Part shown: piece after piece, positions 11,303-37,188 of the stretch
Numbering within the stretch: position 1 is the stretch's first letter
How the letters are laid out: every line of letters begins with the position of its first letter
Source: Clavelina lepadiformis
Lineage: Eukaryota; Chordata; Ascidiacea; Aplousobranchia; Clavelinidae
Assembly: GCF_947623445.1 (NCBI RefSeq)
Contig: NC_135241.1
Location: forward strand, 21,702,501 to 21,766,500
DNA length: 64,000 nucleotides
Reading direction: 5' to 3'
Position numbers and translations under genes: made by a program
The notes under the pieces: generated by a model
Told to the model about the DNA's origin: nothing
What the model saw: only the letters and a program-made list of their open reading frames with translations
The model's database searches: none

Positions 11303-11840
11303 CTAACCGTGCATATCTCGAGCTTCGTTCATGCCTGCAAGTTGACAAAAAACAAGTTGGTTAGAAAAAAATTCCTCGCCAGTGAAGTTTTAGACATTAG
11401 GATTGCTTAAACTTATCAAAAAAAAACGTTGTTTTCTATTGTTTGAAGTCTATGCTTTAACATCTTTGAAGTAAGGTACCTTCATCTTCAAACCTGAAAA
11501 TAAACAAAACAAACAACTGTCAATTAAATCAGATAAAAGAAATGTATCGTGAAAGTTTCTAGCATGACACTAATTAATTTCATCATTACTACCAGATCTT
11601 CAAAAGCAGATTTTTCAAAATATATCGGAAGAAATCAGTTACTGTACAAACGCGAAACCTTCATTTAACTAAAAAATTTTAAGTCATTTAAAAACTTTAC
11701 ATTTCCTCCTCGAAAGTGTTTTCCACACCCTTCAAGCTTCTCTTCTCCATCGTGGAAGATCTACGTCTATAAGTGAATATTGCTGTTTCCGCAGTGAGCA
11801 CAAGACATAAAAGTAAAGCAACTACAATGACTTTATTCAT
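11303..11840 (-). CDS. Secreted small peptide A1 (61 aa, three exons)
   Basis: Exons on the minus strand are 11701-11840, 11480-11493 (a 14-base microexon) and 11303-11334, giving 61 residues and a TAG stop. Residues 1-20 (MNKVIVVALLLCLVLTAETA) are a clear signal peptide with Ala-x-Ala before the likely cut. Then comes a basic segment with YRRRSSTMEKR, followed by an acidic run EEEMFEDE and a short tail ending RDMHG. Donors are GTAAAG and GTACCT; both acceptors end in CAG/TCAG. Without splicing, exon 1 would simply run on to a TAA after residue 47, so the unspliced form is an alternative. The same 2+14-base junction occurs in family B, which supports the spliced model. No named family recognised; I infer a secreted effector such as an antimicrobial peptide precursor. 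Remnants of this gene lie at 17757, 22141 and 35126. Confidence 0.65.
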
Positions 11841-12960
11841 TTTGTTTGCTGTAATCTCAATCCCTACAGTTAATTTTTGATGCTAGGTTAAAGTTATTTT
11901 GCCTTCTAATATACAAAAATATGCCTTTGAGTGAAACCAATCGCCCAGTAATAATCTCTTAAATATTTTCCGATAATTTACCAGATGATGCTACATACAG
12001 GGACGCTTTCTTCAAGTGACTTGATAGACGACGGAAAAGCGTGATATAAGCGTTTTTTATGTGGGCAAATTTGATTAATGACAAAAATTACAAAATAAAT
12101 TGGAAATTTCATGCGTCTTCACTCATCCTTATTTCTAGCTAAAAGAAACATTTGCGTTCGCAGCCGGATTGTTTTTCTCTTCTCTTCCATAAACTAAAAG
12201 TCCTTCTCTATTTAGAACGTGATATGCGATACGTGACGTGTTATCATACTGTTGTTAATTAAAAATTGTCACTGTAATTTAAATTTTGCAGACGAGTAAT
12301 GCGTTTTCGTGCTAATTTGAAGCAACATTTTCGTTGAATTCACATCTTATCAGCACGTTTTCACTTTATACGTGCACTATGTTATACTTCTTAAACTAAC
12401 GTGTGTAACTTTTTATTTTATGAAATTGTTTTTTTCGGCGTGTTATGCCATTTCCTCTATATTTTTACCGTTTCATGCGAAGAAAAATTGTCTGTAATAA
12501 ATGAGTGGTCAGTTTTCCTTAGAACCCAGCTGAAGGCTTGTATTGACTTTATCTAGCTGCTATAAATGCAACAAATACCTGCGTATTATAGTTTATAAAA
12601 GGATCCATTTAGGTAGCACTAATCGTCCAGCAATATTCTCACAATTATTCCCCAAGGTTTAGCAAATAATCTTACCGAGAGAAACTTCCTGCGAATGGTA
12701 TTACAGTACAAACCGTGTATAATACCGGAATAACACCGGAATAATACCATTGCTTTTCAACATGTTGTCATGTGAGCAAAGTAATTAACTAAAAGTGATG
12801 GGAACAACGGAGTTTTCTGAACATCGTTGAATTTTGAATATTTACCAAACGTTCTGTCTACAGCTCTGTAAAATGATAACAGATCTCGTAGAAAACATTG
12901 CTTTTATTGCAAGCTAATTAATACAAACAGTTTGTGGCATATTCAGCATTATTTGCAACG
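11841..12960. other. Upstream region of A1, repeated in unit 3
   Basis: No exon could be supported. From about 11930 onward this sequence is repeated at about 22200-23150, carrying through into gene C, so it is the left part of the larger duplicated block. It should hold the promoter of A1 on the minus strand; an AT-rich ATATAAG-type stretch near 12040 is a weak candidate only. Confidence 0.5.
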
Positions 12961-13455
12961 TCATCCCCTGCGGAACCAAAGAATAACGTTTTTCGGTGCA
13001 GCGTAATACTCGTAATACCCCAAGTCATCTGCAATGCAAAGTATAGTCACAATTAGAAAACTAAACATACCTGTGATAATCAAGATCATGTATATTTCTG
13101 ACCTTTGTCGTCAGACCTACCATTGAGCCTTTCTTGATGCCTACAAAGACAGCTGTCGTTACCAGATATCAGCTAAATGTCATATAGCTAAATCACATTA
13201 CTAATATCATGAACATTTTCGCTTTCTGTTATATGGTTGAACAATTGAAACTTTATGGACTCATTTTACAAGAAGCAAATTATCATAGGAGCATTTTTGC
13301 GATTTTCTGCTACTTATGCCAAAAAGATCGTACTTGACTCACCGAATAATTTTTCTAAAGGTTGATGAACTGCTTCTTTTTGCAATGCTTCGACCTTCAG
13401 ATGGATACAAAAGACAGAATATTACACAAAAGGTAAAAAGAGTTTTTCTCGGCAT
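12961..13455 (-). CDS. Secreted small peptide C1 (66 aa, three exons)
   Basis: Minus-strand exons are 13343-13455, 13121-13140 (20-base microexon) and 12961-13028, reading 66 residues to TGA. The start MPRKTLFTFCVIFCLLYPSEG gives a basic n-region and hydrophobic core of a signal peptide with a cut expected near SEG. The mature part is basic at first (RSIAKRSSSSTFRK), then mixed, with a tyrosine-rich YYEYYAAPK and a tail ending LWFRRG. Donors are GTGAGT and GTAGGT, acceptors TTGTAG and TTGCAG. A second copy at 23149 keeps every splice site, length and frame and has a silent change in exon 3 (TTG to TTA), which is good evidence that the model is real. Exon 1 ends in phase 2 and exon 2 in phase 1, as in A and B. 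No named family recognised. Confidence 0.68.
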
Positions 13456-13483
13456 ATTTACTGCTATAATATTTATTTTTCCG

Positions 13484-13490
13484 TTTATAC
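13484..13490 (-). promoter_or_regulatory. TATA-like sequence upstream of C1
   Basis: Read on the minus strand this is GTATAAA, about 30 bases before the C1 start codon and kept in C2. It would leave a very short 5' leader, so the true start of transcription may lie elsewhere. Confidence 0.3.
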
Positions 13491-14567
13491 AACAGATATT
13501 GTGGTGCTCATCATCTATGGCTATACTTGCTCCGTCTTTTAACAATACATTTTTCCAGTAAATTCATTTTATGCGTGCCTGTACCATGCTTATACACGTA
13601 CATTGCTCACAGGATAGAATAGCGTTTTCTTATAACAAGTAATTAATGGTTCCGTTTCAGTTCACCATTTGCTAAAGATACCAAAGCACAATAGCAATAG
13701 TCCACCAATAGCTCAAATTATTTATCATTCGAGGTGTCTGCGCGCATAGCATCAATATGCTGTCGTAGCTGAAGCTTTTCAATACTTTTATTTCAAACTT
13801 TGATATATGTTTTCTCAACGTCAATGAATATCATAACTTCTTAAGGGCATTCATACAATGCTCTTTCAATACTTTACTAAATATCCAATTTGGTAATAAA
13901 TAAGCCCATTTCAGTGACTGAACCATGCTTCGTTTCTAGTTTTCGGTGACCAATCACCATTTTTATATTCCACACACCTATACGACTAATGGAATATACT
14001 CTTGGTGCCATTGAAACATAGACGCACTGCGCCGATACTGGATAGGACTATTTCAAAATTTTGCGTATTATTCTTTGATCTGTCTTCTTCCTGAAACTAC
14101 AAATATTGATTTTCCAGATTTAAAATCACCGTAATTTCGAATGATAAAACAATTCGTTTAAACTATGAATCTTCAGCTTGCAGATGATAAAATATCACTC
14201 TAGTGTGGGCTTATATAAACCATATATTTAGTCATGGTCGAAATTTAATAATAATCAGGTTTTCTTATGCATAATTTATGCTGCAGCGACAAGTCACACT
14301 GGTTTTTCTTCTCTTAATTGGTTTTCATTAAACATTTAATCAATTCAGGGTCACTATTCTTACGACGCAGAAGTCACACAACCAAAGTAGTATTTGAACT
14401 GGTATTTCTGGAATAGGTTCAAAATACAGGATATGCCATTGTGACTCGAATATATGAACGGATAATTGCGTGCTATTATTGCAATAATTGATAAAATGCC
14501 CACTTTATTACAATCTCGATTAATGATCTGTAGATTTTTTGTGCAAATCATGGATAGGTTATTACAG
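13491..14567. other. Spacer between C1 and cassette D1, with a bidirectional TATA-like site
   Basis: No complete gene seen. A TATATAAA-type stretch at about 14211-14218 is kept at about 18620 and 31079 in other units. It could serve the + strand D cassette, or the C gene on the minus strand. A short frame after it (ATG at about 14278) looks like a signal peptide but is stopped in the other copies. Confidence 0.4.
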
Positions 14568-15064: not shown

Positions 15065-15313
15065 TAAGTTAATAGTTAAGTTATAATGCGACTGTTCTTC
15101 AGCATGCTGCTCATCCTTGATATATTCGCTTCACATTCCTTTATCAGTGAGCATATTATATTTGATGTTATTTGTAAACATGCATGCGTACGTACGTCAT
15201 TTGTTTCGTTTTGATTTTTCAATTTGACAATTTGACAATTTGAAAGTGTGACCTCACAATGAAGTTTGCAACAAGTTTCCTTTTATTGTTATTTCTTTAT
15301 TTTAAACACATTG

Positions 15314-15319
15314 AATAAA
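15314..15319 (+). terminator. Poly(A) signal for cassette D1
   Basis: AATAAA on the + strand about 250 bases after the D1 stop, repeated at the same place in the other units. Just beside it, at about 15282, TTTATT gives an AATAAA on the minus strand that would suit gene B1, so D and B transcripts converge and may overlap. Confidence 0.4.
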
Positions 15320-15589
15320 ACTTGCAACTGCGTAAATGCGATTCTTCAAGTTGAAAAGTGGAAGTCCTGTAAAACGTAATTTCTTTTAGAAAGAATATTT
15401 TGATGTAATGCATAAAATAAGAAATAGTGATTATCTAGCAAAACTTACACAAAGAATTGATGTGTCGTGTGAACAGTAACTGTATATGCAATGATATTGT
15501 AAATCATTCGGTTAGTTTTTTCAACTTAACTTAAACTGTGAGAAACAGAACAAACCTTATTTTCATGTCATAAAACTGCCTCGGGCCTG

Positions 15590-16120
15590 CTACAAGCCAA
15601 TTACGCCGTCGTCAACCACATCGTCTATGCGTTAAGTAATAAAAGATTTAGAAAGATTTTCAATAATTAAATTGGTAAAGTAAAACAAATAATGAACCTC
15701 AGATGAATAAAAGTACTGTACATGTTGGTTTAAATTGAAAGTTTCACCAAGACATAGTTTTACAGCAGTTTGTTACGTTGAGCAATATGTAGATGTTTTC
15801 TTTAGCTTCAACTATCATACAACTTACTGCCATCCACAAAACTGAAAGGTAAATAAATCAAATAAATTTCAAAATAATCTTAAGATACCACACACAACTA
15901 CGACATCAAACTTGTCGGCATATCAAATGTCTTAAATCTAAAGACCCAGATTGATGTGTTTTACTAAACCGATTCATTCTTACATGCTTTCATCCAAGGA
16001 TTGGTGATTCGCTTCAACGCTTTTTTCCACTTTCCTCACAAGATATCTTCTTCCAAAACCTTCAGTGGTCGTGGTAAGCAAAAGGCACATCAGCAAAGCA
16101 ACGATGATTACTTTATTCAT
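15590..16120 (-). CDS. Secreted small peptide B1 (61 aa, three exons)
   Basis: Minus-strand exons are 15984-16120, 15828-15841 (14-base microexon) and 15590-15624, giving 61 residues to TAG. The signal peptide MNKVIIVALLMCLLLTTTTE is followed by a basic stretch GFGRRYLVRKVEKSVEANHQ, then SLDESIFVDG and a strongly acidic end NDVVDDGVIGL. Donors are GTAAGA and GTAAGT; acceptors CTTTCAG and GCATAG. Length and exon phases equal those of A1. In this copy the microexon begins with T, giving Ile where B2, B3 and B4 have Met. The signal-coding DNA is identical in all four B copies, while the segment right after it differs in each. A secreted peptide with a basic core and anionic end is typical of antimicrobial precursors; that role is inference. 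Confidence 0.72.
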
Positions 16121-16172
16121 TTCTGTTTCACTTCAAGATTTTACACTTTCTGATATTTTGTCTTACGTAGCC

Positions 16173-16499: not shown

Positions 16500-17756
16500 A
16501 AATCTTTGAATATAAAACCTTGCTTTAATTAAGCCGTAATCTTAGAAAATTTGCCTTTGAAATAAGATTGCTTAACCTTAAAACAAAAATTGAATTGATT
16601 TTGCAAAGTTTAGTTGTCGAACAGACGAATAAATTGATTGAGACAGACAGACAGAGAGGTAACGCAAGATGATCCTCTAAAATTCTGTGTGGGCATTTCT
16701 TTCTAGCGTTTACATTTGTTAAACAGGAAAAAGAACTAGTTTTCTTTGGCAAATTATGGCATGCGAGCTTTATTAAATTTTGCTTGGTATATAGGCTACT
16801 GTAGGCCACAACGTCAAAGTATTTTGTTTCCATTTCAAGTATAGGCAGACCTCATAATTTACCAACTAAATCTGTAGATGTGTTTATTTGAAAATGCTAC
16901 CAATGCTTTCTGGTTGTGTTGTATATATGCCGTCCAGTATAAATTGATTTTTTTCTAATTTATGAGATGATTTCTAAAATATGTTAAACGCGTCAGATTT
17001 TGTGGAAAAACAAGTTTCCCATGTAGCCTAATATTTTCTCTAACAGACAAAACGTTGTGTTTGTTCTATGTAACTTTAAGTGTTTTGTATTTTTTTCGGT
17101 GGTATCATAACAAATGTTGATAAATTTGAATTTGGTACAAATACAAACGCACTGATCCAAACTAAGTCGAACGTTATGAAAATAAAGAAATCAGTTTCAC
17201 CACTCTAAAGTTTAATGCTAGTTCATCAAGTCGAGACAATGTATCCAATCTTAAAGAAGCCATTACACTGTCAATAAACGGTTGCTGAATGACAAACCGC
17301 TAAATCTGCCAATGTTCAAGTTATCACATATTAACTCATGTTTTTTAGTTGTTAGTATAACAAAAACCAAAAAAGCATAACTAAAACCTAGTTATGGAGC
17401 AAAACATCCGAGTAGATTTTAAAATTTGGGTTTCTTTCTTTCGATAAAAATAACTCAAAACATAAATTAAGCTAGTTTTTCGTTAATATGTCAAAAAAAA
17501 AGTGGAAACGTAATGGATTTAAAACAAAAGTCCATTTGGAGCTAGTTTATGGCTGATAGGAATTATGGCGATGTCTCACCTTGTGCTATGTGCCATCATG
17601 GGCGACTTTCCTTTAATTCCAAATGGTTGCATTACAACTACCTCTTGCCCTAAGCACAGCAATGTGCAATGAGTAATATAACGGAAGAAATCAGTTCCTG
17701 TACAAACGCGAAACCTTCATTTAACTAAAACATTTTAAATCATTTAATAGCTTTAC
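16500..17756. other. Unit tail upstream of B1
   Basis: No gene seen. This stretch recurs, with indels, at about 21300-22140, 33830-35125 and 37570-38745. It contains a short AGAC microsatellite near 16641 and AT-rich sequence. It is the spacer between a B gene and the next unit. Confidence 0.5.
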
Positions 17757-18031
17757 ATTTCCTCCTCGAAAGGGTTTTCAACATCTTTCAAGCTTCTCTT
17801 CTCCATCATGGAGGATCTACGTCTGTCACTGAATCGTACTGTTTCCGCAGTGCGCTTATGCGGTACAACCTGTTAGGGGGCTGACTATTTGTTGACGGCA
17901 GAGCTAAGCCAGACATAGCGGGCATCGTACCACGTGGTAAGCTTTTAACATAATAGTTGGGTTATAGAATGACTGTTCTTGCGCATGCTGCTAAAACAAA
18001 CCACCAAAGCAAGGATGATCACTTTATTCAT
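17757..18031 (-). pseudogene. Broken copy A2 of peptide gene A
   Basis: The two ends of A-type exon 1 are present: the start and signal sequence MNKVIILALVVCF at 17990-18031, and the basic/acidic part with DRRRSSMMEKRSLKDVE at 17757-17855. They are separated by about 135 unrelated bases that resemble a decayed end of the D basic exon and the sequence after it. The signal is therefore cut from the mature part and no intact frame remains. It marks a recombination junction between unit 1 and unit 2. Confidence 0.6.
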
Positions 18032-19561
18032 TTTTTATTTTACCTCAAATTTCTTACGTCTTCCGATATAGATTGCTTTAAACAAAAAACATTACAAACA
18101 TATTACTAAACATTTATACTACATTACAAACATATGAAACCTAGCACGTTTTATTCACTAAAATCAGTGATTTAACGATTACAAAAATACGCTAAGTTTT
18201 ACTGAAGTATAGCCAGTCTGCCGCTTGCTCTAAGCAGCAACGTACATAGAGAGCAAATATTCTTGTTTTGGTTTTCATAGCAATCTTGCAGTTCTTCGTA
18301 GGCCGCTTGTCTGGAATAGAAGTATGTGATTAATATATGAGCTAAATAGGAATTCTACTGCAAAAAACGTTTCTTGTAACTTACATTGAAGTTGTTTTGC
18401 TCGAAATTTAAACGTGCAAAAATGTATTTTGCAAATCTGCCGATAGTTTTGCAAAATATTCGTAGCAAAATGTTTCACAAATATTGCGTTTTAACTATTT
18501 CATTGTACTTATATTAATGCGGTATTGCAATTTCTGAAATTAAAACTGGCTTTTAAAAGAGATTTAAAGTATGAATCTTTAGATTTCAGATGATAAGATA
18601 TTCCTCTAGTGTGGGCTTATATAAACCATATATTTAGTCATGGTCGAGTTTTAATAATAATCAGGTTTTCTTGTGCATAATTTATGTTGTAGCGAAATGT
18701 CACACTGGTTTTTCTTCTCTTAATTGGTTTTCATTAAATATTTAATCAATTCAGGGACACTATTCTTACAACGCAGAAGTCACACAACCAAAGTAGTATT
18801 TGAACTGATATTTCTGGAATAGGTTTAAAATACAGTATATGCCATTGTGACTCAAATATATGAACGGATAATTGCGTGTTATTGTTGTAATAATTGATAA
18901 ATTGCCCACATTATTGCTATCTCGATTAATGATCTGTAGATTTTTTTCGTGCAAATCATGGATAGGTTATTACAGGGTTTGCATCGTGCAACAGTTGGCC
19001 TGTAAACAGATGTGAATTCTAATTTGAATGTTGGCGAGATGCAGTATGCGAGTAAGTAATACTGATTAATGTAGAGGTTTGAACAGAAACTTGACTAGCT
19101 ACTATAATACGATTGAATTTGATACTTCGATCAAGTTATAATTACGATTTATGTTTGTAACTGAGTTTGAATGGGTTTGCGCGCTGCAAAGCAGAATCTA
19201 AAGAGGTTTTGTACAACGTTGGTATGTGCAGCATTCATCACAATGTGACAAAAGTGAGACGTTGCAACATTTTGCTGCTTTATATTCTTTATTCAGTTCC
19301 TCTTGTTGGCATCGCAACATTTTCTAAGTGGCCGGCAGCCCTTTTTTAATTTGTTACTGACAAGTTTTTTTTTTGAGTTTCTTTTATTAATTTCTACATA
19401 AAAGTTTTTTTAACTTGTAAGAATTTGTTAATGACCAAATCAAAATGTAACAAAGTTAAATCATAAATAATTACAGCTTTGGGTAGAGATTGTACGATTT
19501 TAATTGTCAAAATAGGAATTTTACTGTAACTTGAAGAATATTTCAACTAATTTTAACTTAG
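18032..19561. other. Spacer and decayed 5' part of cassette D2
   Basis: From about 18550 the sequence copies 14170-14660, including the TATATAAA stretch, but the segment-a equivalent near 18978-19050 has a stop and a deletion. From about 19090 to 19560 it matches 31660-32125 and 35250-35731. One short frame there (start 19167) has a hydrophobic LLLYILYSVPLVGIA run. It recurs in two other copies but lacks a convincing donor site. Confidence 0.4.
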
Positions 19562-20380: not shown

Positions 20381-20918
20381 CTACAAGCCAACTACGCCAT
20401 CGTCAACCACATCGTCTATGCGTTAAGTAAAAAAAGATTTAGAAAACATTTTCAATAATTAAATGGGTAAAGTAAAATAAATAATTAACCTGAGTTGAAT
20501 AAAAGTACTGTACATGTTGGTTTAAATTGAAAGTTTCACCAAAACATAGTTTTACAGCAGTTTGTTACGTTGAGCAATATGTAGATGTTTTGTTTAGCCT
20601 CAACTATCATACAACTTACTGCCATCCACAAACCTGAAAGGTAAACAAATCAAATAAAATTCAAAATAATGTTAAGATACCACACATAACTACGACATCA
20701 AACTTGTCGGCATATCAGATGTCTTAAATCTAAAGACCCAGATTGATGTGTTTTACTAAACCGATTCATTCTTACATGCTTTCATCCAATGATTGGTGAT
20801 TCGCTTCAACGCTTTTTTCCAACATAACAGCTCTTCTTCTTCTTCTTCTTCCAAAACCTTCAGTGGTCGTGGTAAGCAAAAGGCACATCAGCAAAGCAAC
20901 GATGATTACTTTATTCAT
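20381..20918 (-). CDS. Secreted small peptide B2 (63 aa), with an arginine run
   Basis: Exons 20776-20918, 20630-20643 and 20381-20415 on the minus strand, 63 residues. The signal peptide is identical to B1. The next segment reads GFGRRRRRRAVMLEKSVEAN: six arginines, encoded by a run of AGA codons (CTT/TTC repeats on the + strand, 20831-20852), replace the RRYLVRK of B1. The microexon gives MFVDG and the tail NDVVDDGVVGL. Splice sites are as in B1. The codon run is a likely result of slippage; the frame is kept. A TATATA stretch lies about 55 bases before the start. Confidence 0.7.
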
Positions 20919-22140
20919 TTCTGTCTCACTTCAAGTTTTTACACTTTCTGATATTTTGTCTTACTTAACCTATATATTTAAATTGAAATATGAATAAACC
21001 CATAAGACGCTTTTTCATTAAAACCCACGCGATTGCGAAAAGTTGGTGCATGAAAAAAGGCTTACTAGGGGAATGTCTCCCACAATGGGACACTTTTAAG
21101 AAAACTGCTCACACTCAAACACACGATTTGCTTTGGCTAATCTTTTTTCGGTTTCGTTAGATATGACATCGCTTGGAATTAAGCGCAAGAGTTTCAATAA
21201 CTTTTTTGTTATTTATTGAGTTATTTATAAAATAAAAATGAATCTTTTGTCCCATCTTGTATAACCATGATAAACCAAGATGGGAGAGCACGCATAAATC
21301 TGTGATAGCAAAACCTTGCTTTAATTAAGCCGTAATCTTAGAAAATTTGCCTTTAAAATAAGATTGCTTAAACTTAAAACAAAAATTGAATTGATTTTGC
21401 AAAGTTTAGTTGTCGAACAGACGAATAAATTGATTGAGACAGACAGACAGACAACGCAAGATGATCTTCTAAAATTCTATGTGGCCATTTCTTTCCAGCG
21501 TTTACAGTTGTTAAACAGGAAAAAGAACTAGTTTTTCTTGGCAAGTATAGAAAAAATAAACAATAAAAATATAGAAATCAGTTTCACCACTCTAAAATTT
21601 AATGCTAGTTCATCAAGTCGAGACAATGTATCCAATCTTAAAGAAGCCATTACACTGTCAATAAACGGTTGCTGAATGACAAACCGCTAAGTCTGCCAAT
21701 GTTCTAGTTATCACATATTAACTCATGTCTTTTAGTTGTTAGTATAACAAAAACCAAAACATAACTAAAACCTAGTTATGGAGCAAAACATCCGAGTAGA
21801 TTTTAAAATTTGGGTTTGTTTTATTTCGATAAAAATAACTTAAAACACAAATTAAGCTAGTTTTTCGTTAATATGTCAAAAAAAAGTGGAAACGTAATGG
21901 ATTTAAAACAAAAGTCCATTTGGAGCTAGTTTATGGCTGAAAACAATTATGGCGATGCCTCATCTTGTGCTATGTGCTATCATGGGCGACTTTCCTCTAA
22001 TGCCAAATAGTTGCATTACAACTACCTCTTGCCCTAAGCACAGCAATGTGCAATGAGTAATATAAAGAAAGAAATCAGTTCCTGTACAAACGCGAAACCT
22101 TCATTTAACTAAAACATTTTAAATCATTTAATAGCTTTAC
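20919..22140. other. Unit 2 tail upstream of B2
   Basis: No gene seen. It holds the B2 promoter region with a TATATATT stretch (about 20971), a GGGGAATGTCTCCC motif (21068-21081) and the hairpin at about 21249-21285. It then copies the unit 1 tail with a large internal deletion. Confidence 0.45.
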
Positions 22141-22182
22141 ATTTCCTCCTCGAAAGTGTTTTCAACATCCTTCAAGCTTCTC
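22141..22182 (-). pseudogene. Fragment A3 of peptide gene A
   Basis: Only the last part of A-type exon 1 remains (RSLKDVENTFEEE); the signal and basic segment are gone, replaced by the sequence that starts the unit 3 copy of the 11.9-13.8 kb block. Confidence 0.55.
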
Positions 22183-23148
22183 TGACAAGCGTTGACTTCT
22201 AAGCGTTTGTCATGTTTGTCAACCAATCGTCCAGTAATATTCTCTTAAATATTTTCCGATAATTTACCAGATGATGTTACATACAGGGAAGCTTTCTTCA
22301 AGTGACTTGATAGACGATGGAAAAGCGTGATATAAGCGTTTGTCATGTGGACAAAAATTGATTAATTACAAAAATTACAAAATAAATTGGAACTTACATG
22401 CGCCTTCACTCATCCTTATTTTTAACTAAAAGAAACAATTGCATTCACAGCCGGGTTGTTTTTCTTTTCTGTTTCTTAAAACTAAAAGTCCTCCTCTATT
22501 TATAACATGATATGCCATACGTGACGTCTTCTCGTGCTGTTGTTATGCATTTTCGTGCTAATTTGATGCAACATTTTTGTTGAATTCACACCTTATCAGC
22601 ACGTTTTCACTTTATACGTGCAGTATGTTATACTTCTTAAAATAACGTGTGTAACTTTTCATTTAATGAAATTGTTTTATTGGCGTGTTTTCCTTAGAAC
22701 GCATCTGAAGGGTTGTATTGACTTTATCTAGCATTCTAGCTGCTATGAATGCAACAAATACCTGCGTGTTATAGTTTATAAAAAGATCCATTTGGGTGGC
22801 ACTAATCGTCCAGCAATATTCTCACAATTTTTCCCCAACGTTTAGCAAATAATCTTACCGAGAGAAACTTCCTGCGAGTGATATTACAGTACAAACCGTG
22901 TATAATACCGGAATAACACCGGAATAATATACCATTGCTTTTCAACATGTTGTCATGTGAGCAAAGTAATTAACTAAAAGTGATGGGAACAACGGAGTTT
23001 TCTGAACATCGTTGAATTTTGAATATTTACCAAACGTTTTGTCTACAGCTCTGTAAAATGATAACAGATCTCGTAGAAAACATTTTTTTATTGCAAGCTA
23101 ATTAATACAAACAGTTTGTGGCAAATTCAGCATTATTTGTAACGTCGA

Positions 23149-23649: not shown

Positions 23650-24300
23650 ATTTACTGCTATAATATTTATTTTTCCGTTTATACAACAGATATTCTGGTG
23701 CTCATCAGCTATGGCTATACTTGCTCAGTCATTTAACAATAATTATTTCCAGTAATTTTATTTTATGCGTGACTGTACCATGCTTATACACGTACATTGC
23801 TCACAGGATAGGATTGCGTTTTCTTATAACAAGTAATTAATGGTTCCGTTTCAGTTCACCATTTGCTAAAGATACCAAAGCACAATAGCAATAGTCCACC
23901 AATAGCTCAAATTATTTATCATTCGAGATGTTTGCGCTCATAGCATCAATATGCTGTCGTAGCTGAAGCTTTTCAATACAGTCGAATCCGCTTAATTCGG
24001 ACACCGGATAACCCGGACAACCGCTTTATTCGGCCAAAATGCTCGGGAACGGAACAAAAGTAAAAATTGAACGTAAAAAAATCCTGTTAATTCGGACAAT
24101 TCTCCGCTTAATTCGGACACAGGTTCGCAATTCCATCGTTAGGTTATGACACAATAAACAGTACTTCGTTCGTTTTAAGACAAGATGCAATTGCATTATG
24201 AGTGATTATGGTGAAACAATGACGATCCATGCAGTAACAATCGACAATGAACTCATATAACGCCGTGCCAGCTTCATAGTCGCTTTTACTTGGGTACAAT

Positions 24301-24719: not shown

Positions 24720-24756
24720 TCCCCCCCAGACCAGTTCTTTTCCGGCCCCGGAAAAG

Positions 24757-27700
24757 TTATTCAATATCCGGGTAAAAACGTGTTTGTCTTCGAGCTCGCC
24801 GTGGCGGTAGGTTTCTTTCCGTCATGGCCGAAGTGGTCTCGCTGGGAATGGGGCCGTTCTCTTCGAGGGCAGGTTGGCTTGTCTCTATTGTCTCGTTATT
24901 GCCCTCCTCTGTGATCCTGAGTTGCCCAACTGCCGAGTCTTCCCGTCCTTGACTACTGGATAATCGCTCAGTCGCGCTCGTATTGATTGATGTAGCCTCG
25001 GATTCTCCGGTGGCGGTATCCGTTGAATGTAGTGGTATGAACACCAAACCTTCAAAAGGAGAACAGTGGTTAATGCCATTATCCGGAACATGATCGTACG
25101 GGAGTTGATTGTCACGCTTGTCATCACTATGAACCCTTAATTTCATTCTGTTAAAATGAACCGTTTGCTCTTTGCCGGCTTTGTCTTTAATAGTATAAGT
25201 GGGATGTCGCGCGTTCACTACCGTGAAGGGGCCCTTGTAAGGAAGATGAAATTTGCGATATTCTCCCTGTGGGACCACTGGGTCTTTCAGCCATACTTCT
25301 TTCCCCACTTCAATTGGTAGCCCCCTTTGTCGTTGGTCGTAGAGGTCGGCCATCTTCGTTCGTTGTTTCCGTAGCGTTTCCCGCACCGTCTTTTCTGCAA
25401 TCTTTAACCGCGTTTGTAAATCCTGAATAACCGACGTTTTCAGCACTCCACCGGTCGGTGTGCCCAATAAATCCGCAGGTAAACGAAGCGTACGACCAGT
25501 TAATAAGAAATGCGGCGATACACCTGTGCTGTCGTGGACGCTCGCGTTATAGGCCGCCACGACGGCTGACAAAGCTTGATCCCAACTACGTTGATCCTCC
25601 TGTACGTAATTTCGCAACATGGTGATGATAGTCTTGTTGTTTCTCTCAACTCCCCCGTTCCCTTGTGGATGATAACTTGTGGTCCTTGTTTTCGAACAAC
25701 CCATCAATCGTAATAGTTCTTTGAAGACCTCGCTCTCAAAATTCCCACCCCGGTCGCTGTGGATAACATCTGGTACACCATGAACTGTGAACCATCGGTG
25801 GAACAAGACGTCCGCTGTGGTTTTTGCTGTTTGACTGCGCATGGGCCAGGCCCTTACATACTTGGTAAATAAATCGCACGCCACCAAGATGTATTGAAAA
25901 CCTGATGATGTCATAGGTAGGGGTCCCACGACGTCTATTTCTACTCTCTGCATTGCCCTATCTTCCGTGGACGGAACCAACCTCGCCCTTGGTTCGGCCG
26001 GCGGTTTCTTGTTCCTTTGACATACATCGCAGTTTCGGCAATATTTTTCGGTGTCCTGTCTCCAACCAGGCCAATAAAATTTTTCTTCTACTTTGTGGCA
26101 AGTTTTCGTCAACCCTAAATGAGCCCCGCCAAGAACGCAATCGTGTAGTGACTGTAAAACAGACAAACGCATAGGTTCCGGAGTTATAAGTCGATAACAG
26201 TGTGTTCCCGGTAAACTGCGATTACTATTTGCCCAATAAACGGGGCCGTCAAAAGTGTGTAAACTCCCAAATTGGGCCCATAGATGCTTAGTCATTCTTG
26301 ACAAGTTTTTAACGTGTTTGTACGGAGGTCTTTTCCCCAACTGTAGCCATCTCAAAGCGGGGGCAATCTCTGCGTCCTCTTCCTGTAGATTCAGTACTTC
26401 ATTCGGAAGAAACCCGATGTTGCCTCTAAGATCTATGTTGTTGACTGTTTGCTCGTAATCTTCGAGGCTTGTTGCAACTTGTTGGTCATGCTGTTTGTAG
26501 GGGAGGTTCACCTGTGTACCTTCGTTAGGGCGTCGACTCAACGCGTCAGCGTTTTTGTGTTTTTGTCCTGGTCGATGGAGTAGCTCAAAATTGTACTCGG
26601 CAAGGTGTTCTATCCATCGAGCGCATTGTCCATACAACTCCTTTGACTGCCATAACCAACGCAACGATGCATGGTCCGTCCTCAGCAAAAACTTTTGACC
26701 TAGTAGGTGACACCTATTCAATTTTGTTGCCCAGACGACCGCCAGAAGTTCTTTTCGAGTCGTGGAGTAGTTCTTTTCTGCTTTCCCTAGAGATCGGCTA
26801 CAATACGAGATCACACACTCTCTGTCATCTGTGACTTGTGACAGAACAGCACCAATTGCGTTATCGGATGCATCGGTGTCGAGAATAAACGGCTTGTCGT
26901 AGTTTGGGTATGACAGCACTGGTGCGGTACACAGCAAACGCTTCAATGTAGCAAAGGCGTCCTGATGCTCTTCGGTCCATTGAAACGTCTTGTTCTTCTC
27001 GGTGAGCTTGTGCAACGGTGAGGCAATTTTGGCATAATTTGGAATAAACTTCCTATAATATGATGTCAGACCCACAAACTGTCGAACGTGTTTCACGGTA
27101 CGAGGTATCGGCCAATTCGCGACTGTCTCTACTTTCTCGGCGTCGCACATCACGCCTTCCTTAGAAATTTTATGCCCTAAAAATTTCACCGATTCTTGAA
27201 AAAGAGAGCATTTGGACGGTTTCAGTGTTAAACCGGCTTCTTCCAGTCGGCTTAAAACGTCGCTTAAACGAGACATGTGCTCCCCGAATGTGCGACCATA
27301 CACTATTACATCGTCTAAATATGCTAAAGCGCCGCGCCACTCCAATCCATTTAGAACGATGTGCATCAATCGTTGAAATGTAGCTGCCGAATTGCTAAGA
27401 CCCATCGGCATAACGTTCCATTCATATAACCCCATGTGGGTGGTAAAAGCAGTAACCTCGCGAGACCTGTGATTCATGGGTATTTGCCAATACCCTGAAC
27501 GCAGATCCAGGGTAGAAAAATAAATGTTACTCGACAATTCGTCCAGGCTCTCGTCGACACGTGGGATTGGGAAACTGTTCTTTTTCATCAGGTCATTCAC
27601 GCGCCTGTAATCAACACAAAACCTCAACTCGCCCGATTTTTTTCGTACAAGAACAATGGCGCTGGACCAAGGGGATGTGGATGTGCGAATCAAGCCTTGC

Positions 27701-29802
27701 TTCTCCATTTCCGTGAGGATTTCTTCTACCTGGCGCTTGTCTCGAGGGGGTATTCGACGATGCGGTTGTCTCACAGGGGCGCTAGTCCCAATGTCAACAT
27801 GGTGTTCTATCAAGTCGGTTTTGCCTAGATCGAACTGACTGGTCGAAAAACACTTCCAATGCTTCGATAATAAATTGAGTACTTCGCGACGTTCACTCTT
27901 AGACAGCTTCGTCCCTAAATCTACGCCTTCTTCAATAGCTTGCAAGTGATCACGCTGGGGTTTAAAACGATGTTCTTCTACCGACGCCACGGAGCATCTT
28001 TGGTCGGAGTTCACAATGCATCGGTTATTATTGCAGTCACACGTGGAATTTAATCTCGAAACTAAAGCGCACGTGCCGGGCTGGTAAACATCACCTCCGC
28101 CGAATACAGAGACTGGATGTAGGGTGGCGACCCTGGTTCCGTTGACTAATTTGACTTCGTCATCACTGAAATTAGCCAATCGAATGGGGACCTTTCCGTT
28201 ATGAACTTGCGTGAGGTAGTTACCCGCTAGTACCCCATATTTATCATTCAATCGGAGATTACCTTCAACTAGTGCCGGAAACTCAACGTCGGGCATCTTA
28301 AGCATCGGATCCATACAAAATATGCCAAAAGTACACACCTCAGTGGAAGCGGGGACGATCAGGTCTTCGACGATATAAACCTCGTTTCGCTGTAAGGTCA
28401 CTTTTCCATCGAGCAGGGGTGTCGACGACGATCCGGCTTCTAGAATTTTGTCTTTGTAGCAGATCCGGCATTGGTGATGCTGGACGAAATCTAACCCAAT
28501 GATGAAATCTTCCGTGAGTTGATTAACTACGTAGATTTCGCACTCTGTGATCAAACCGGCCACTTGCACTGATAATGTGACAAGGCCTAACACCTGTAGG
28601 GCCGTCCCGCTAGCCGTTGTTAACTGTGTATCTAACGTGGGGCCTAGTGTAGTACTCGGATTTTCTGACGAAACTTTATCGAACAAAGTTTTAGACATGA
28701 GTGATACGCTGGCTCCCGTGTCTACCAGAGCACAAATGGGCATAGAACACAACATCATATTAACATACTTGCATAACCTTTTCCGGTATTGTTGTTGAGC
28801 GAGTGTTGCGGTGGCTGGAGCAGGCGGACGGGATCGATTCCAACTTAACTTTGATCTGTTTACATCAAATGCGTTAGTCCGAGGGTTGTGATTCGTAGCT
28901 AGGCTTTGACGGTTTAGGCGATCTCGCCTAGATGAATCATATTTAGACGGATTTGCATTTGAGCGTGGGTTGTTTCGGACCCCACGTGTTTTATCGGAAG
29001 GGGACTTACGGTTTCGGTATCGTTGATTTCTTCCTTCAGACGGACCCGGTGCGCGTGGTCTCCATTGGAGGCGATCCACGTCTCGTTGTAAAATGTTCAT
29101 TTGCGTTTTCACTGAAGACACAGTTTCGTCAATACTGGAAATCCGGCCTTGAATATTGTCATTAAACAATTTTATCTCGCTACTTATCTTAGCAAGTTCA
29201 TTCTTCATCAAAACAGTCGCTTCGTCCTGGCGGCTTTCGTCTCCATGTGAAAGTCGAGCGACAGTGAACACGTCTGAACACGAAGTCTTTTCCGAGACGT
29301 CCAGGGCAATGGCTCGGGCGCTGGTAATGAAGAAGTCTCTGCCGATCTGTAGGTCTGCGACTAAGGTTTCCGATATTTTGCGGTTTCTCAAACCCCGGAT
29401 CAATGCCAAGTAGAGTACCTCATTTTTTACAGGTGCTTGATCTGCACTGGCATATGCCATGTCACCCTGCTTCCGCAAAGCGTAGACGAATGATCGTGTA
29501 GATTCGTCCGGTTCTTGTACCCTATCCAAAAGGCTGTTTTTTAATCTGCTGATTTCCGCCTTTGATCGCCCTGCTTCTGAAGCCCTTTCCACCAACTCGT
29601 CGAACTCTAAGTCGTAGACGGAGGCATCTTTCCCTTGAATTTCCCAGACAAAGTCCTTATCGAAACTTTCAATGAGGAGGTGTTTCTTAAAATCTTGATT
29701 TGCCCTAACGCTGGCGCAGTAAGAGTTAAAAACTTTGAGAAAGTCTTGAAAGTCTTCATTGGACTTATATCTCAGTGGAGGCAACGTCACATTAAAAGCC
29801 AT
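24757..29802 (-). CDS. Gag-pol polyprotein of the Ty3/Gypsy element (1,681 aa)
   Basis: A single uninterrupted frame from ATG at 29802; the open frame extends a few codons further upstream without an ATG. Gag-like region about 1-330 with a basic RNR/RR-rich end near 250-320 and no CCHC zinc knuckle that I can find. Aspartic protease LVDTGAS with the catalytic Asp near 361. Reverse transcriptase with AYLDDV at about 827-832. RNase H begins LDTDAS near 974. The integrase zinc-binding segment is near 1220-1261, and the catalytic triad is Asp about 1290, Asp about 1350 (HSDRGG), Glu about 1386 (GNGGVERN), spaced as D-D-35-E. All key residues are present, so the frame looks coding-competent. Gag and pol are fused without a frameshift. 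Confidence 0.92.
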   Translation of the reverse strand: MAFNVTLPPLRYKSNEDFQDFLKVFNSYCASVRANQDFKKHLLIESFDKDFVWEIQGKDASVYDLEFDELVERASEAGRSKAEISRLKNSLLDRVQEPDESTRSFVYALRKQGDMAYASADQAPVKNEVLYLALIRGLRNRKISETLVADLQIGRDFFITSARAIALDVSEKTSCSDVFTVARLSHGDESRQDEATVLMKNELAKISSEIKLFNDNIQGRISSIDETVSSVKTQMNILQRDVDRLQWRPRAPGPSEGRNQRYRNRKSPSDKTRGVRNNPRSNANPSKYDSSRRDRLNRQSLATNHNPRTNAFDVNRSKLSWNRSRPPAPATATLAQQQYRKRLCKYVNMMLCSMPICALVDTGASVSLMSKTLFDKVSSENPSTTLGPTLDTQLTTASGTALQVLGLVTLSVQVAGLITECEIYVVNQLTEDFIIGLDFVQHHQCRICYKDKILEAGSSSTPLLDGKVTLQRNEVYIVEDLIVPASTEVCTFGIFCMDPMLKMPDVEFPALVEGNLRLNDKYGVLAGNYLTQVHNGKVPIRLANFSDDEVKLVNGTRVATLHPVSVFGGGDVYQPGTCALVSRLNSTCDCNNNRCIVNSDQRCSVASVEEHRFKPQRDHLQAIEEGVDLGTKLSKSERREVLNLLSKHWKCFSTSQFDLGKTDLIEHHVDIGTSAPVRQPHRRIPPRDKRQVEEILTEMEKQGLIRTSTSPWSSAIVLVRKKSGELRFCVDYRRVNDLMKKNSFPIPRVDESLDELSSNIYFSTLDLRSGYWQIPMNHRSREVTAFTTHMGLYEWNVMPMGLSNSAATFQRLMHIVLNGLEWRGALAYLDDVIVYGRTFGEHMSRLSDVLSRLEEAGLTLKPSKCSLFQESVKFLGHKISKEGVMCDAEKVETVANWPIPRTVKHVRQFVGLTSYYRKFIPNYAKIASPLHKLTEKNKTFQWTEEHQDAFATLKRLLCTAPVLSYPNYDKPFILDTDASDNAIGAVLSQVTDDRECVISYCSRSLGKAEKNYSTTRKELLAVVWATKLNRCHLLGQKFLLRTDHASLRWLWQSKELYGQCARWIEHLAEYNFELLHRPGQKHKNADALSRRPNEGTQVNLPYKQHDQQVATSLEDYEQTVNNIDLRGNIGFLPNEVLNLQEEDAEIAPALRWLQLGKRPPYKHVKNLSRMTKHLWAQFGSLHTFDGPVYWANSNRSLPGTHCYRLITPEPMRLSVLQSLHDCVLGGAHLGLTKTCHKVEEKFYWPGWRQDTEKYCRNCDVCQRNKKPPAEPRARLVPSTEDRAMQRVEIDVVGPLPMTSSGFQYILVACDLFTKYVRAWPMRSQTAKTTADVLFHRWFTVHGVPDVIHSDRGGNFESEVFKELLRLMGCSKTRTTSYHPQGNGGVERNNKTIITMLRNYVQEDQRSWDQALSAVVAAYNASVHDSTGVSPHFLLTGRTLRLPADLLGTPTGGVLKTSVIQDLQTRLKIAEKTVRETLRKQRTKMADLYDQRQRGLPIEVGKEVWLKDPVVPQGEYRKFHLPYKGPFTVVNARHPTYTIKDKAGKEQTVHFNRMKLRVHSDDKRDNQLPYDHVPDNGINHCSPFEGLVFIPLHSTDTATGESEATSINTSATERLSSSQGREDSAVGQLRITEEGNNETIETSQPALEENGPIPSETTSAMTERNLPPRRARRQTRFYPDIE

Positions 29803-29813
29803 ACTGGTAAACA

Positions 29814-29844
29814 ATACCTTGATACCTTGATACCTTGATACCTT
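29814..29844. repeat. Short tandem repeat of ATACCTTG in the retrotransposon leader
   Basis: Nearly four copies of an eight-base unit just upstream of the gag start codon. Confidence 0.7.
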
Positions 29845-29861
29845 TTTGACTGCGGGATCCT

Positions 29862-29874
29862 GGCGCGCTCGCCA
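29862..29874 (-). other. Primer binding site of the retrotransposon
   Basis: Reads TGGCGAGCGCGCC on the coding strand, two bases after the 5' LTR. The TGG start fits pairing to a tRNA CCA end; the tRNA was not identified. Confidence 0.5.
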
Positions 29875-29876
29875 AT

Positions 29877-30365
29877 TGTAACCAAACTTTCTTTACCAGG
29901 TAAGCTCCCCGCTTAACGGCTAGTCAATTAGCCAGACTGTCTTATTTCTACGAGTCTTCCTTAGATAAAAACAAACGTCTTCTTTTATTAAAACCAAACG
30001 TAGACTGACTACACTCGCCCAGCCGAGCGCGACACCTCACAAAACACAAATTCCACGTAATCAAAGAATCAACGTGGGACGCTGAATACTAATTAGGCGC
30101 TCGGGGTAGCGAGACGAAACGTCACTAGTGAAAAAATACGTGTACACTTAAACATGTAAAATATAGCAGAACGTGAACATGCATAAAAATGACTAATGTG
30201 AACAACAGTGAAATAAAACAAATATAGACTACGTAACCAGACAAACATAAAAATGATACAACAAAAAGAACACGTCCGACTAAATCAATCAATACAAAGG
30301 GGTTCAGAAAAACAGTGCACATTGAGATTGCTATAAAACGGGTGCCTAAAATAAATCTCGTGACA
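29877..30365 (-). repeat. 5' LTR of the retrotransposon
   Basis: 489 bases, TG...CA ends, partner of 24301-24719. Confidence 0.8.
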
Positions 30366-30663
30366 CAATTGCGTCCATCTTGTAGGACAAAATTGTACAG
30401 AAAAGTTTAGCACGAAAATTGAAATTGCTCACTAAAGTAAACGAAGACGTTTTATGCGATCAGTGCCAGTTACTGCAGTATAGCGCAGCTGCAATTCATT
30501 TATTACGCAACACTACAGTATTTTAAATGCGTTTTTTGCCTTTATGCATGCCCATGAAACGAACAATTGATGTTCCGCTTAATTCGGACAAAGCCGTTTC
30601 TCCGCTTAATTCGGCCAAAAGTGAGCGGAACCAAAGTGTCCGAATTAAGCGGATTCGACTGTA

Positions 30664-32241: not shown

Positions 32242-32312
32242 TAAGAATTCAGTTTTAAGTTAAGATTGTTACGTTGCTACACTGCTGAAGATCTACCTTA
32301 TTTTCTAAGCAG

Positions 32313-32914: not shown

Positions 32915-33448
32915 CTACAAGCCAACTACGCCATCGTCAACCACATCGTCTATGCGTTAAGTAAAAAATATTTAGAAAAATTTTGAATAAATAAATGGAT
33001 AAAGTAAAACCAATAATGAACCTGAGTTGAATAAAAGTACTGTACATGTTGGTTTAAATTGAAAGTTTCACCAAAACATAGTTTTACAGCAGTTTGTTAC
33101 GTTGAGCAATATGTAGATGTTTTCTTTAGCCTCAAATATCATATAACTTACTGCCATCTACAAACCTGAAAAGGTAAACAAATCAAATAATATTCATAAT
33201 AATGTTAAGATACCACACATAACTACCACATCAAACTTGTCGGCATATCAAATGTCTTAAATCTAAAGGCTCAGATTGATGTGTTTTACTAAACCGAATC
33301 ATTCTTACATGCTTTCATCCAATGATTGGTGATTCTCTTCAACACTTTTTTCCACTTTCTTCACAACATATCTTCTTCTTCCATAACCTTCAGTGGTCGT
33401 GGTAAGCAAAAGGCACATCAGCAAAGCAACGATGATTACTTTATTCAT
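32915..33448 (-). CDS. Secreted small peptide B3 (62 aa, three exons)
   Basis: Exons 33309-33448, 33152-33165 and 32915-32949 on the minus strand. Signal peptide identical to B1 and B2. The following segment is GYGRRRYVVKKVEKSVEENH, again different from the other copies. The microexon gives MFVDG with a silent change (GTA for GTG) and the tail is NDVVDDGVVGL. Splice sites are intact. The TATATA stretch of B1/B2 reads TAGATATT here, so promoter strength may differ; that is inference. Confidence 0.7.
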
Positions 33449-33980: not shown

Positions 33981-34062
<82 letters not shown>

Positions 34063-35125
34063 CTCAAGATGATCTTCTAAAATTCTGTGTGGCCATTTCC
34101 TTTCAGCGTTTACAGTTGTTAAACAGGAAAAAGAACAATTTTTTTTTGGCAAATAATGGCAGCCGAGTTTTATTAAATTTTGCTTGCGCGCCACAATGTC
34201 AAAATATTTTGTTTCCATTTTAGGTATAGGCAGACCTCATAATTTACCAATTAAATCTGTAGATGTGTTTATTTGAAAATGCTACCAATGCTTTTTGGTT
34301 GCCTTGTATATATGCCGTCCTGTTAAAATCGATTTTTTTTAATTTATGAGATGATTTCTAAAATATGTTAAGCGCGTCAGATTTTGTGGAAAAACAAATT
34401 TCCCATGTAGCCTAATATTTTCTTTAACAGACAAAACGTTGTGTTCGTTCTATGTAACCTCACGTGTTTTGTATTTTTTTCGTTGGTATCATAATAAATG
34501 TTGATAAATTTGAACTTGGTACAAATACAAACACACTGATCCAAATTAAGTCGAACGTTATAACAATATAGAAATCAGTTTCACCACTCTAAAGTATAAC
34601 GCTAGTTCATCAAGTCGAGACAATGTATCCCATCTTAAAGAAGCCATTACACTGTCAATACACGGTTACTGAATGACAAATCGCTAAATCTGCAAATATT
34701 CAAGTTATCACATATTAACTCATGTCTTTTAGTTGTTAGCATAACAAAAACCAAAACATAACTAAAATCTAGTTATGGAGCAAAACATCTGAGTAGATTT
34801 TAAAATTTGAGTTCGTTTTCTTTCGATAAAAATAACTTAAAACACAAATTAAGCTAGTTTTTCGTTAATATGTCAAAAGAAAAGTGGAAACTTAATAGAT
34901 TTAAAACAAAAGTCCATTTGGTGCCACTTTATGGCTGAAAGAAATTATGGCGATGTCTAATCTTGTGCTATGTGCCATCATGGGCGACTTTCCTTTAATT
35001 CCAAATGGTTGCATTACAACTACCTCTTGCCCTAAGCACAGCAATGTGCAATGCGTAATATAACGGAAGAAATCAGTTACTGTACAAACGCGAAACTTTC
35101 ATTTAACTATCATTTAAATCATTTA
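33449..35125. other. Unit 3 tail upstream of B3
   Basis: Repeat of the unit 1 tail, with the GGGGAAAGTCTCCC motif (33598-33611), the hairpin (33777-33816) and an expanded AGAC microsatellite. No gene seen. Confidence 0.45.
33981..34060. repeat. (AGAC)20 microsatellite
   Basis: Twenty perfect AGAC units. The same site has only a few units near 16641, 21440 and 37707 in the other array units. It creates long artificial repeat frames on both strands that should not be called genes. Confidence 0.95.
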
Positions 35126-35150
35126 AAAGCTTTACATTTCCTCCTCGAGT
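35126..35150 (-). pseudogene. Fragment A4 of peptide gene A
   Basis: Only the donor-side end of A-type exon 1 (acidic Glu codons and GTAAAG) remains before the sequence switches to the D cassette of unit 4. Confidence 0.45.
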
Positions 35151-35731: not shown

Positions 35732-35853
35732 GCAAATGGAGCTGGTGTAGAATTCGCAGCATTGATCCCATTCAAAAACTTCAATATTTGATAAAATACT
35801 TAACGCAACATGTACGGTTAACAGAAAAATTAAAAAACTTGTTTTTGGATTAA
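35732..35853 (+). other. Exon-like segment b of cassette D4
   Basis: Reads GKWSWCRIRSIDPIQKLQYL, then on to KNLFLD and a stop. Kept in frame with 19562; ATC to ATT and ACA to ACG are silent. Confidence 0.3.
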
Positions 35854-35970
35854 CTCCTTGTCATCACAAGTTATAGCCTATACGCCAAAAACAATGTAAT
35901 AAGAATTCAGTTTTAAGTTAAGATTGTTGCGTTGCTACGCTGGTGAAGAGCTACCTTATTTTCTATGCAG

Positions 35971-36139
35971 GTACAGACGTGAGTACATTAGCGCTTATAC
36001 GCTGCAATATGTGAACAAGCTCGCAGCTGTTTATTGGCGGCTCAGAGAACGGAAGTTGTTCAATCATACATTTTACCGCTGGCGGTGGAAATTAGATCTC
36101 GATGAGCCAGATTCAGCTGGAATCGTGGCAGGCTGTTAA
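35971..36139 (+). CDS. Cassette D4: conserved basic exon, partial gene
   Basis: Same exon as D1 and D3, open for 55 codons to TAA, ending AGIVAGC. An AATAAA follows near 36378. Start exon not found; the unit 4 copy lacks the TATA stretch and segment a because the unit begins within the cassette. Confidence 0.42.
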
Positions 36140-36654
36140 GTTAATAGTTAGGTTATACTGAGACTGTTCTTCAGCATGCTGCTCATCCATGATACATATG
36201 CTTCACATTCCTTTATCAGTGAGCATATTATATTTCATGTTGTTTGTAAACACGCCTGCGTACGTACGTCATTTGTTTCGTTTTGATTTTTCAATTTGAC
36301 AATTTGAAAGTGTGACCTCACAATGAAGTTTGCAACAAGTTTCCTTTGATTGTTATTTCTTTATTTTAAACACATTGAATAAAACTTGCAACTGTGTAAA
36401 TGCGATTCTTGAAGTTGAAAATTGGAAGTCCTGTAAAACGTAATATCTTTTAGAAAGAATATTTTAACGTAATGCATAAAATAAGAAATAGTAAGTATCT
36501 AGCAAACCTTACACAACGAATTGATGTCTCGCGTGAACAGTAACTGTATATGCAATGATATTGTAAATCATTCGGTTTGTTTTTTCAACTTTAACTTAAA
36601 CTGTAAGAAACAGAACAAACCTTATTTTCATGTCATAAAACTGCCTCGGGTCTG

Positions 36655-37188
36655 CTACAAGCCAACTACGCCATCGTCAACCACATCGTCTATGCGTTAA
36701 GTAATAAACAATTTAGAAAAATTTTGAATAATTAAATTGGTAAAGTAAAAGAAATAATGAACCTGAGTTGAATAAAAGTACTGTACATGTTGGTTTAATT
36801 TGAAAGTTTCACCAAAACATAGTTTTACAGCAGTTTGTTACGTTGAGCAATATGTAGATGTTTTCTTTAGCCTCAACTATCAAACAACTTACTGCCGTCC
36901 ACAAACCTGAAAGGTAAACAAATCAAATAAATTTCAAAATAATCTTAAGATACCACACATAACTGCGACATCAAACTTGTCGGCATATCAAATGTCTTAA
37001 ATCTAAAGGCCCTGATTGATGTGTTTTACTAAACCGATTCATTCTTACATGCTTTCATCCAATGATTGGTGATTCGCTTCAAAGCTTTTTTCCACTTTCT
37101 TCACAACACCTCTTCTTCTTCACCAACCTTCAGTGGTCGTGGTAAGCAAAAGGCACATCAGCAAAGCAACGATGATTACTTTATTCAT
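36655..37188 (-). pseudogene. Peptide gene B4 with a stop right after the signal peptide
   Basis: Exons 37049-37188, 36893-36906 and 36655-36689 match B1-B3 in length and splice sites. The signal-coding DNA is identical, but after 22 codons TGA occurs at 37120-37122 where B1 and B2 have GGA, and the residue before it is Trp. The remaining frame is still open and keeps the acidic tail. As read, the product would be little more than the signal peptide. It is either a recent pseudogene or a sequence error. Confidence 0.65.

Follow-up and report, generated by a model that had tools for sequence, protein, structure and literature searches.

What do the very short, three-exon genes encode that lie in an array on the minus strand of a 64,000-nucleotide stretch of the Clavelina lepadiformis genome (chromosome 2:21702501-21766500; hereafter the window)? 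A preliminary description of this DNA had proposed precursors with a signal peptide, a cationic core and an anionic end, split by two introns around a microexon. Our analysis points to short secreted host-defence (antimicrobial) peptide precursors as the products of two gene types of the array, A and B, and of two diverged types elsewhere in the genome, D and E. On the strength of sequence and analogy we give this reading a probability of about 60%. It is favoured because the copies share a layout and intron phases, because the signal is under selection and the core is variable, because of the charges of the predicted parts, because there are both tandem and decayed copies, and because the plan is that of the myticalins of mussels and the linear cationic antimicrobial peptides (LCAMPs) of Ciona.

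A tandem array of genes with microexons

The following features, all on the minus strand, make up the array; exon lengths are in nucleotides (nt) and product lengths in amino acids (aa).

A1: 11303..11840, minus strand, intact model; exon 1 11840-11701, 14-nt exon 11493-11480, exon 3 11334-11303; 61 aa
B1: 15285..16120, minus strand, intact model; exon 1 16120-15984, 14-nt exon 15841-15828, exon 3 coding 15624-15590; 61 aa
B1, 3' part: minus strand; exon 3 continues to 15556; exon 4, either 3' untranslated region or an alternative coding part, runs from 15366; poly(A) signals lie at 15301 and 15287
B2: 20381..20918, minus strand, intact model; exon 1 20918-20776, 14-nt exon 20633-20620, exon 3 coding 20415-20381; 63 aa
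B3: 32915..33448, minus strand, intact model; exon 1 33448-33309, 14-nt exon 33165-33152, exon 3 coding 32949-32915; 62 aa
C1: 12961..13455, minus strand, open model; exon 1 13455-13343, 20-nt exon 13140-13121, exon 3 13028-12961; 66 aa
C2: 23149..23649, minus strand, open model; exon 1 23649-23537, 20-nt exon 23328-23309, exon 3 23216-23149; 66 aa
B4: 36655..37188, minus strand, complete layout, but exon 1 has an in-frame TGA right behind the signal; probable pseudogene
A-type remnant: 17675..17855, minus strand, 89.5% identity to A1 over 181 nt
A-type remnant: 22059..22183, minus strand, 92% identity to A1 over 125 nt
A-type remnant: 35057..35148, minus strand, 90.5% identity to A1 over 95 nt
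B-like signal-exon remnant: 18002..18069, minus strand, 77.9% identity to B2 over 68 nt, ATG at 18031

All six models previously described as intact, with products of 61-66 residues, could be rebuilt at the same coordinates with open frames of 61, 61, 63, 62, 66 and 66 aa (A1, B1, B2, B3, C1 and C2), and the proposed junctions 15984/15841, 15828/15624 and 13343/13140 were reproduced. The remnants reported for the array were likewise recovered as B4 with its in-frame TGA, three A-type pieces and one B-like signal piece. Every rebuilt model has GT donors and AG acceptors, with intron phases 2 then 1 in 6/6. The middle exon of 14 nt in A and B or 20 nt in C was present in all six as had been described, but these two lengths do not cover the family, as the middle exon of D1 and D2 has 17 nt.

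On the minus strand the gene order B-C-A is repeated with partial losses. Because of this repetition, the 83.4-95.5% identity of 20 aligned blocks across the array region and the low divergence of the introns of B1-B4 (4.9 and 5.6% of compared sites differ), we attribute the array to tandem duplication. A1, B1-B3, D and E are almost certainly real genes, and we regard C1 and C2 as separate genes with moderate confidence.

Diverged copies elsewhere in the genome

Searching the genome (209.06 Mb in 95 contigs) exon by exon gave overlapping sets of matches: at least 7 for B1 (E up to 0.001), at least 9 for A1 and at least 6 for C1 (E up to 1), and at least 9 for D1 and at least 10 for E1 (E up to 10). 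The following copies lie outside the window.

D1 and D2: chromosome 2:21334131, minus strand, and 21343330, plus strand; inverted pair, 0.37 Mb from the array
E1: chromosome 1:11893123, plus strand; intact diverged copy
F1: chromosome 1:11891741, minus strand; exon 1 frame broken
C-type copy: chromosome 1, about 11888640-11889105; broken
D-type exon-3-side fragment: chromosome 2, near 21340.1-21340.7 kb

The third exon of D1 and D2 ends in ..DVIDAGEVGL. In E1 the first intron has 1287 nt and the middle exon 14 nt. Scanning E1 for AG-N(11/14/17/20/23)-GT returned three open candidates, one of them homologous to the 14-nt exon; it is identical to that of B2 at 10/14 positions, a level that a random 14-mer of the window reaches with a frequency of 0.0005. 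Exon 3 of E1 was chosen from 30 listed acceptor candidates by its resemblance to B and D. The three-exon layout and the intron phases are the same in A, B, D and E. Middle exons of 14, 17 and 20 nt preserve the frame, and since none of these lengths is a multiple of three, skipping the exon would shift it.

Two patterns were used to gauge how specific these features are. A codon-degenerate pattern for the start of the signal had nine matches in 209 Mb, all nine in the family (A1, B1-B4, D1, D2, E1 and F1), and its backward control had none. The microexon with its splice sites gave four matches, 4/4 in the family (control 0); this pattern was derived from known copies, which makes it partly circular, and it is too strict for A1, B1 and B4.

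Constraint on the signal and divergence of the core

We then compared substitutions between copies, with signal-peptide counts rounded for the significance test. Between B2 and E1 the signal changed at 8 of 14.7 synonymous but only 1 of 48.3 nonsynonymous sites (p = 1.3e-5). The same excess of synonymous change was seen for D1-E1 (p = 8.1e-5), A1-B2 (p = 0.0014) and B2-D1 (p = 0.03). Purifying selection acts on the signal peptide. Among B1-B4, 0/63 signal sites vary compared with 33/344 intron sites (p = 0.005), a uniformity that gene conversion could also have caused.

In the core, nonsynonymous change exceeded that of the signal in all four comparisons (B2-E1, p = 8.9e-10; D1-E1, p = 3.5e-6; A1-B2, p = 0.007; B2-D1, p = 1.3e-6). 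The rate of nonsynonymous change in the core (dN) exceeds the synonymous rate (dS) in some pairs only (0.87 versus 0.33 for B2-D1; 0.65 versus 1.04 for D1-E1), and the core offers only about 8 synonymous sites; we therefore describe the core as hypervariable without claiming positive selection. For the tail, dN was 0.30-0.38 and dS 0.64-1.26 (B2-D1, B2-E1 and D1-E1), placing tail dN between those of signal and core. The mismatch of 0.32 in the core among B1-B4 is inflated by misaligned arginine codons, and codon counts were relied on instead.

Plain exon and intron identity under loose gap costs did not discriminate (shuffled introns reached 0.68) and was replaced by scores against shuffled sequences. 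Among B2, D1 and E1, exon 1 scored z = 13.7-15.1, exon 3 z = 4.2-8.2 and the microexon z = 2.7-3.4; the introns scored z = -0.0 to 6.2.

The predicted precursor and its processing

The predicted precursors begin with a signal of 20-21 residues, whose presence and cleavage place were read by eye. The putative cores, IFTYRRRSSTMEKR, FGRRYLVRKVEK, FGRRRRRRAVMLEK, YGRRRYVVKKVEK, WRRRRAGLKIVKR and WGKHRYFSNRKVKR, have 12-14 residues, a charge of +4 to +7 and no cysteine; they are mostly arginine-rich, and their first residue, or one close to it, is aromatic. The tails comprise 27-33 residues with a charge of -7 to -11. The boundary between core and tail reads KR|S in A1, D1, D2 and E1 and EK|S in B1-B3. 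For A and B, the order of signal, cationic core and anionic tail and the gene structure given in the preliminary description were right, and the diverged paralogs lend further support: between copies the signal is held by purifying selection while the core is hypervariable, and A, D and E share the KR|S boundary.

Exon 1 encodes the conserved signal, the hypervariable basic core and the start of the acidic tail, and the frame-keeping microexon (14 or 17 nt) and short third exon the rest of that tail. From this plan the following mechanism may be proposed. The precursor would be secreted or stored in granules with its core neutralised by the tail, and a cut at Lys-Arg|Ser (A, D and E) or Glu-Lys|Ser (B) would release the cationic core, which may act on microbial membranes. 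Tandem duplication would create copies, the cores of which then diversify. If so, the family would be a compact case of defence-peptide diversification, with a constant signal, a slower acidic part, a fast core, tandem duplication and decay, and it would supply candidate peptides for activity at sea-water salt.

A signal peptide followed by cleavage-like basic sites is also what precursors of neuropeptides or peptide hormones would present, with short signalling peptides cut out at RR or KR; A1 moreover ends in glycine, which could permit amidation of a cut product. However, the part from signal to KR is the most variable, whereas the strongest conservation would be expected of a receptor ligand, and the cores contain no repeated or conserved short motif. 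We consider such a role quite improbable.

Toxins and reproductive proteins, too, show a conserved signal with a hypervariable core. The peptides might be secreted in another fast-evolving role, as a chemical deterrent of predators or larvae, in gamete recognition or allorecognition, or as a tunic component, and the myticalin report itself likens a conserved signal and variable core to toxins (PMC5577615). An arginine-rich, cysteine-free core with a matching acidic tail nevertheless fits antimicrobial precursors better, which makes these other roles unlikely, though less so than a neuropeptide.

Comparison with known peptide families

Myticalins are linear cationic antimicrobial peptides of Mytilus with proven activity (PMC5577615). 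Like them, the Clavelina family has a conserved signal, a hypervariable cationic centre and an anionic C-terminal extension, and in myticalins the C-terminal part is conserved as well; the myticalin Lys-Arg site between centre and extension has a counterpart in the KR|S of A1, D1, D2 and E1, whereas B1-B3 read EK|S. In both, signal and core share one exon, a phase 1 intron lies in the tail, and the genes form a multigene family with pseudogenes that is restricted to one lineage, for Clavelina within the limits of a word-limited search (PMC5577615). The conserved signal and hypervariable cationic centre with more than 10% arginine by which myticalins are recognised were found in A, B, D and E. 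The lengths differ: the mature part has 12-14 residues in Clavelina but 23-42 in myticalins, and the tail 27-33 compared with 35-75, both outside the myticalin range (PMC5577615). In contrast to myticalins, the coding sequence of the Clavelina genes is interrupted by two introns around a microexon, and an exon of the 5' untranslated region was not seen (PMC5577615). A word-limited protein search found no sequence homology between the two, one from a mussel and the other from an ascidian.

The Ciona LCAMPs (Ci-MAM, Ci-PAP and the family with the MNKSALL signal) are also from an ascidian, with precursors of similar size and a signal conserved within each family (PMC7387483). Their order of signal, cationic and anionic parts within 50-100 aa was found in the Clavelina precursors, and as in Ciona some cores contain arginine runs; the signal of one Ciona family also begins with MNK (PMC7387483). 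Ciona LCAMPs have proven activity, and basic processing motifs are described as missing at their cationic/anionic boundary, unlike the Lys-Arg|Ser of Clavelina A, D and E (PMC7387483). Clavelina cores are shorter and less hydrophobic than those of Ciona.

Styelins and botryllin are likewise cationic antimicrobial peptides of ascidians produced as pre-propeptides, although botryllin differs in its 158-aa precursor and 37-aa mature peptide (PMC9966394). Unlike turgencins, the six-cysteine peptides of the ascidian Synoicum turgens (PMC7024374), the Clavelina cores contain no cysteine. Schistosome micro-exon genes also have secreted, fast-changing products, very short exons and alternative-splicing variants (PMC5825161), but the likeness goes no deeper than the notion of tiny exons in genes for secreted proteins. 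However, about 80% of their coding region lies in symmetric exons of 6-36 bp (PMC5825161), whereas each Clavelina gene has just one microexon, asymmetric and 14-20 nt long, which makes up about 7-10% of a coding sequence of 186-207 nt. By analogy, the Clavelina family most likely works like myticalins and LCAMPs, and we claim membership in neither. It is new in that it has so far been seen only in C. lepadiformis, has a short basic core with a frame-bound microexon in the pro-part, and gives a hint that neighbouring genes may be spliced together.

Public gene models and evidence against a defence role

About 5.8 billion proteins were searched with a profile (E up to 10; 1197 candidates), a search that requires shared words and similar length; it returned four matches, all unnamed proteins of C. 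lepadiformis (P0001-P0004). Within these limits, A1, B3, D and E had no counterpart among the public proteins in this one search, which is no proof of missing annotation, and no relative turned up in another species, which does not imply absence elsewhere. P0001 (B2) and P0002 (B1) splice exon 1 to the microexon and then read through into intron 2 (..FVDGSKLYDS). The public models thus place the first junction where the preliminary description did; its expectation that gene callers would miss the microexon is borne out only in part, since the exon 1-microexon junction is in the public B1 and B2 models. The microexon does complicate annotation of such genes, in that the public models disagree on the 3' end. 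P0003 splices the microexon to an acceptor just beyond the stop (15586) and continues into exon 4 (15366), differing by four residues from the same join in B1 of the window. In P0004, B1 exon 1 is followed by a longer, 38-nt version of the C1 middle exon (13140-13103) and then by C1 exon 3; all 80/80 residues are identical to exons joined from the window.

Just beyond the TAG stop of B and D lies a kept stretch resembling ..GSFMT/DSFMT (15546-15590 in B1), which is in frame and coding in E1, where the stop is missing (both read by eye). It may go back to a tail that was once longer, or reflect the alternative acceptor of P0003.

Several observations weigh against host defence, or against the models on which it is built. 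Public models of B1 and B2 carry other 3' ends. The B2-D1 introns are still alignable (z = 3.3-6.2), and exon 3 of A1 does not align to that of other copies (z = 0.4-1.6), although its exon 1 and microexon do. The KR site is lost in B. The cores are short; set against the cationic amphipathic alpha-helix of Ciona LCAMPs, their helical moment of 0.22-0.34 is moderate, and they are less amphipathic than Ci-MAM-A. Their hydrophobicity, close to zero, is below that of Ci-MAM-A and Ci-PAP-A and resembles that of the active Ciona peptide KH.C7.94 (-0.03 as computed; -0.033 in Table 3 of PMC7387483). Pfam gave no meaningful match (best E 0.12, below the cut-off), NCBIfam none, and the Protein Data Bank, searched with B1 only, no sequence match. 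Homology to Ciona KH.S921.1 (P0005), the one precursor compared out of 22 listed candidates, was not detected beyond the first 10 residues: hhalign gave a probability of 2.3% over 10 columns, and only the MNK start is shared. Finally, exon 1 of C1 and C2 is identical at 108/113 positions (0.96), compared with 283/294 (0.96) and 0.98 in the introns, leaving these genes without clear evidence of selection and weaker than A and B.

The C genes also bear on the possibility that the array is mostly dead or was never translated, and consists of chance frames that recent duplication and gene conversion have kept similar. That C1 and C2 are no more alike in exon 1 than in their introns would be expected in such a case, as would the broken copies (B4 and the A remnants in the window, F1 and the C copy on chromosome 1). 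Diverged copies show purifying selection on the signal, the microexon lengths preserve the frame, and public models contain the splice junction; all three argue against a dead array, which we hold to be very improbable.

The C genes and possible splicing between neighbours

In exons 2 and 3, C1 and C2 differ at 1/88 sites. The preliminary description had placed C in one array with A and B. Clear membership of C in their family was not supported: the only links between the types are their intron phases, their proximity and a single chimeric public model, and homology of C to A or B was not detected (probability 3%).

The B-C-A array might be a splicing cassette, in which a signal-plus-core exon is joined to the 3' exons of a neighbour or to alternative acceptors. 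Exon joining between neighbours is possible because the intron phases match (2 then 1). P0004, with its B1 and C1 exons, and P0003, with its acceptor behind the stop, fit such a cassette, and their splice sites are canonical in the window. If true, one core could be followed by an acidic tail, by a basic tail that contains cysteine or by the tail of C, and splicing between genes would enlarge the repertoire of defence peptides. We regard this as a tentative and rather doubtful proposal.

Literature, other scans and surrounding DNA

No peptide-gene family of Clavelina was named in the titles and abstract starts of 11 papers listed for Clavelina and antimicrobial peptides. Scans of the window with Rfam (gathering threshold) and for tRNAs were empty.

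Between B3 and C2, nested transposons at 23979-30663 interrupt a duplicated block. The outer element is TA-flanked with inverted CAGTCGAATCCGCTTAATTCGG ends. Nested inside is, by eye, an apparent Ty3/Gypsy-type long terminal repeat element with a 1711-aa stop-to-stop frame (24757-29892, minus strand); the sequences close to either end of it share only 67.9% identity across 358 aligned positions. A perfect AGAC microsatellite of about 20 copies lies at 33981-34061; by eye, its counterparts in the duplicated blocks (near 16.6, 21.4 and 37.7 kb) are much shorter.

Beyond the array, a tandem duplication of about 10.7 kb (42179-52890 and 53286-64000; 97.2% identity) carries an open reading frame with an RGS domain match (Pfam E 1.9e-5; 46349 and 57453). 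A second frame in this duplication, with multiple membrane spans, is open at 59343-60458 and split into two overlapping frames at 48239-49353.

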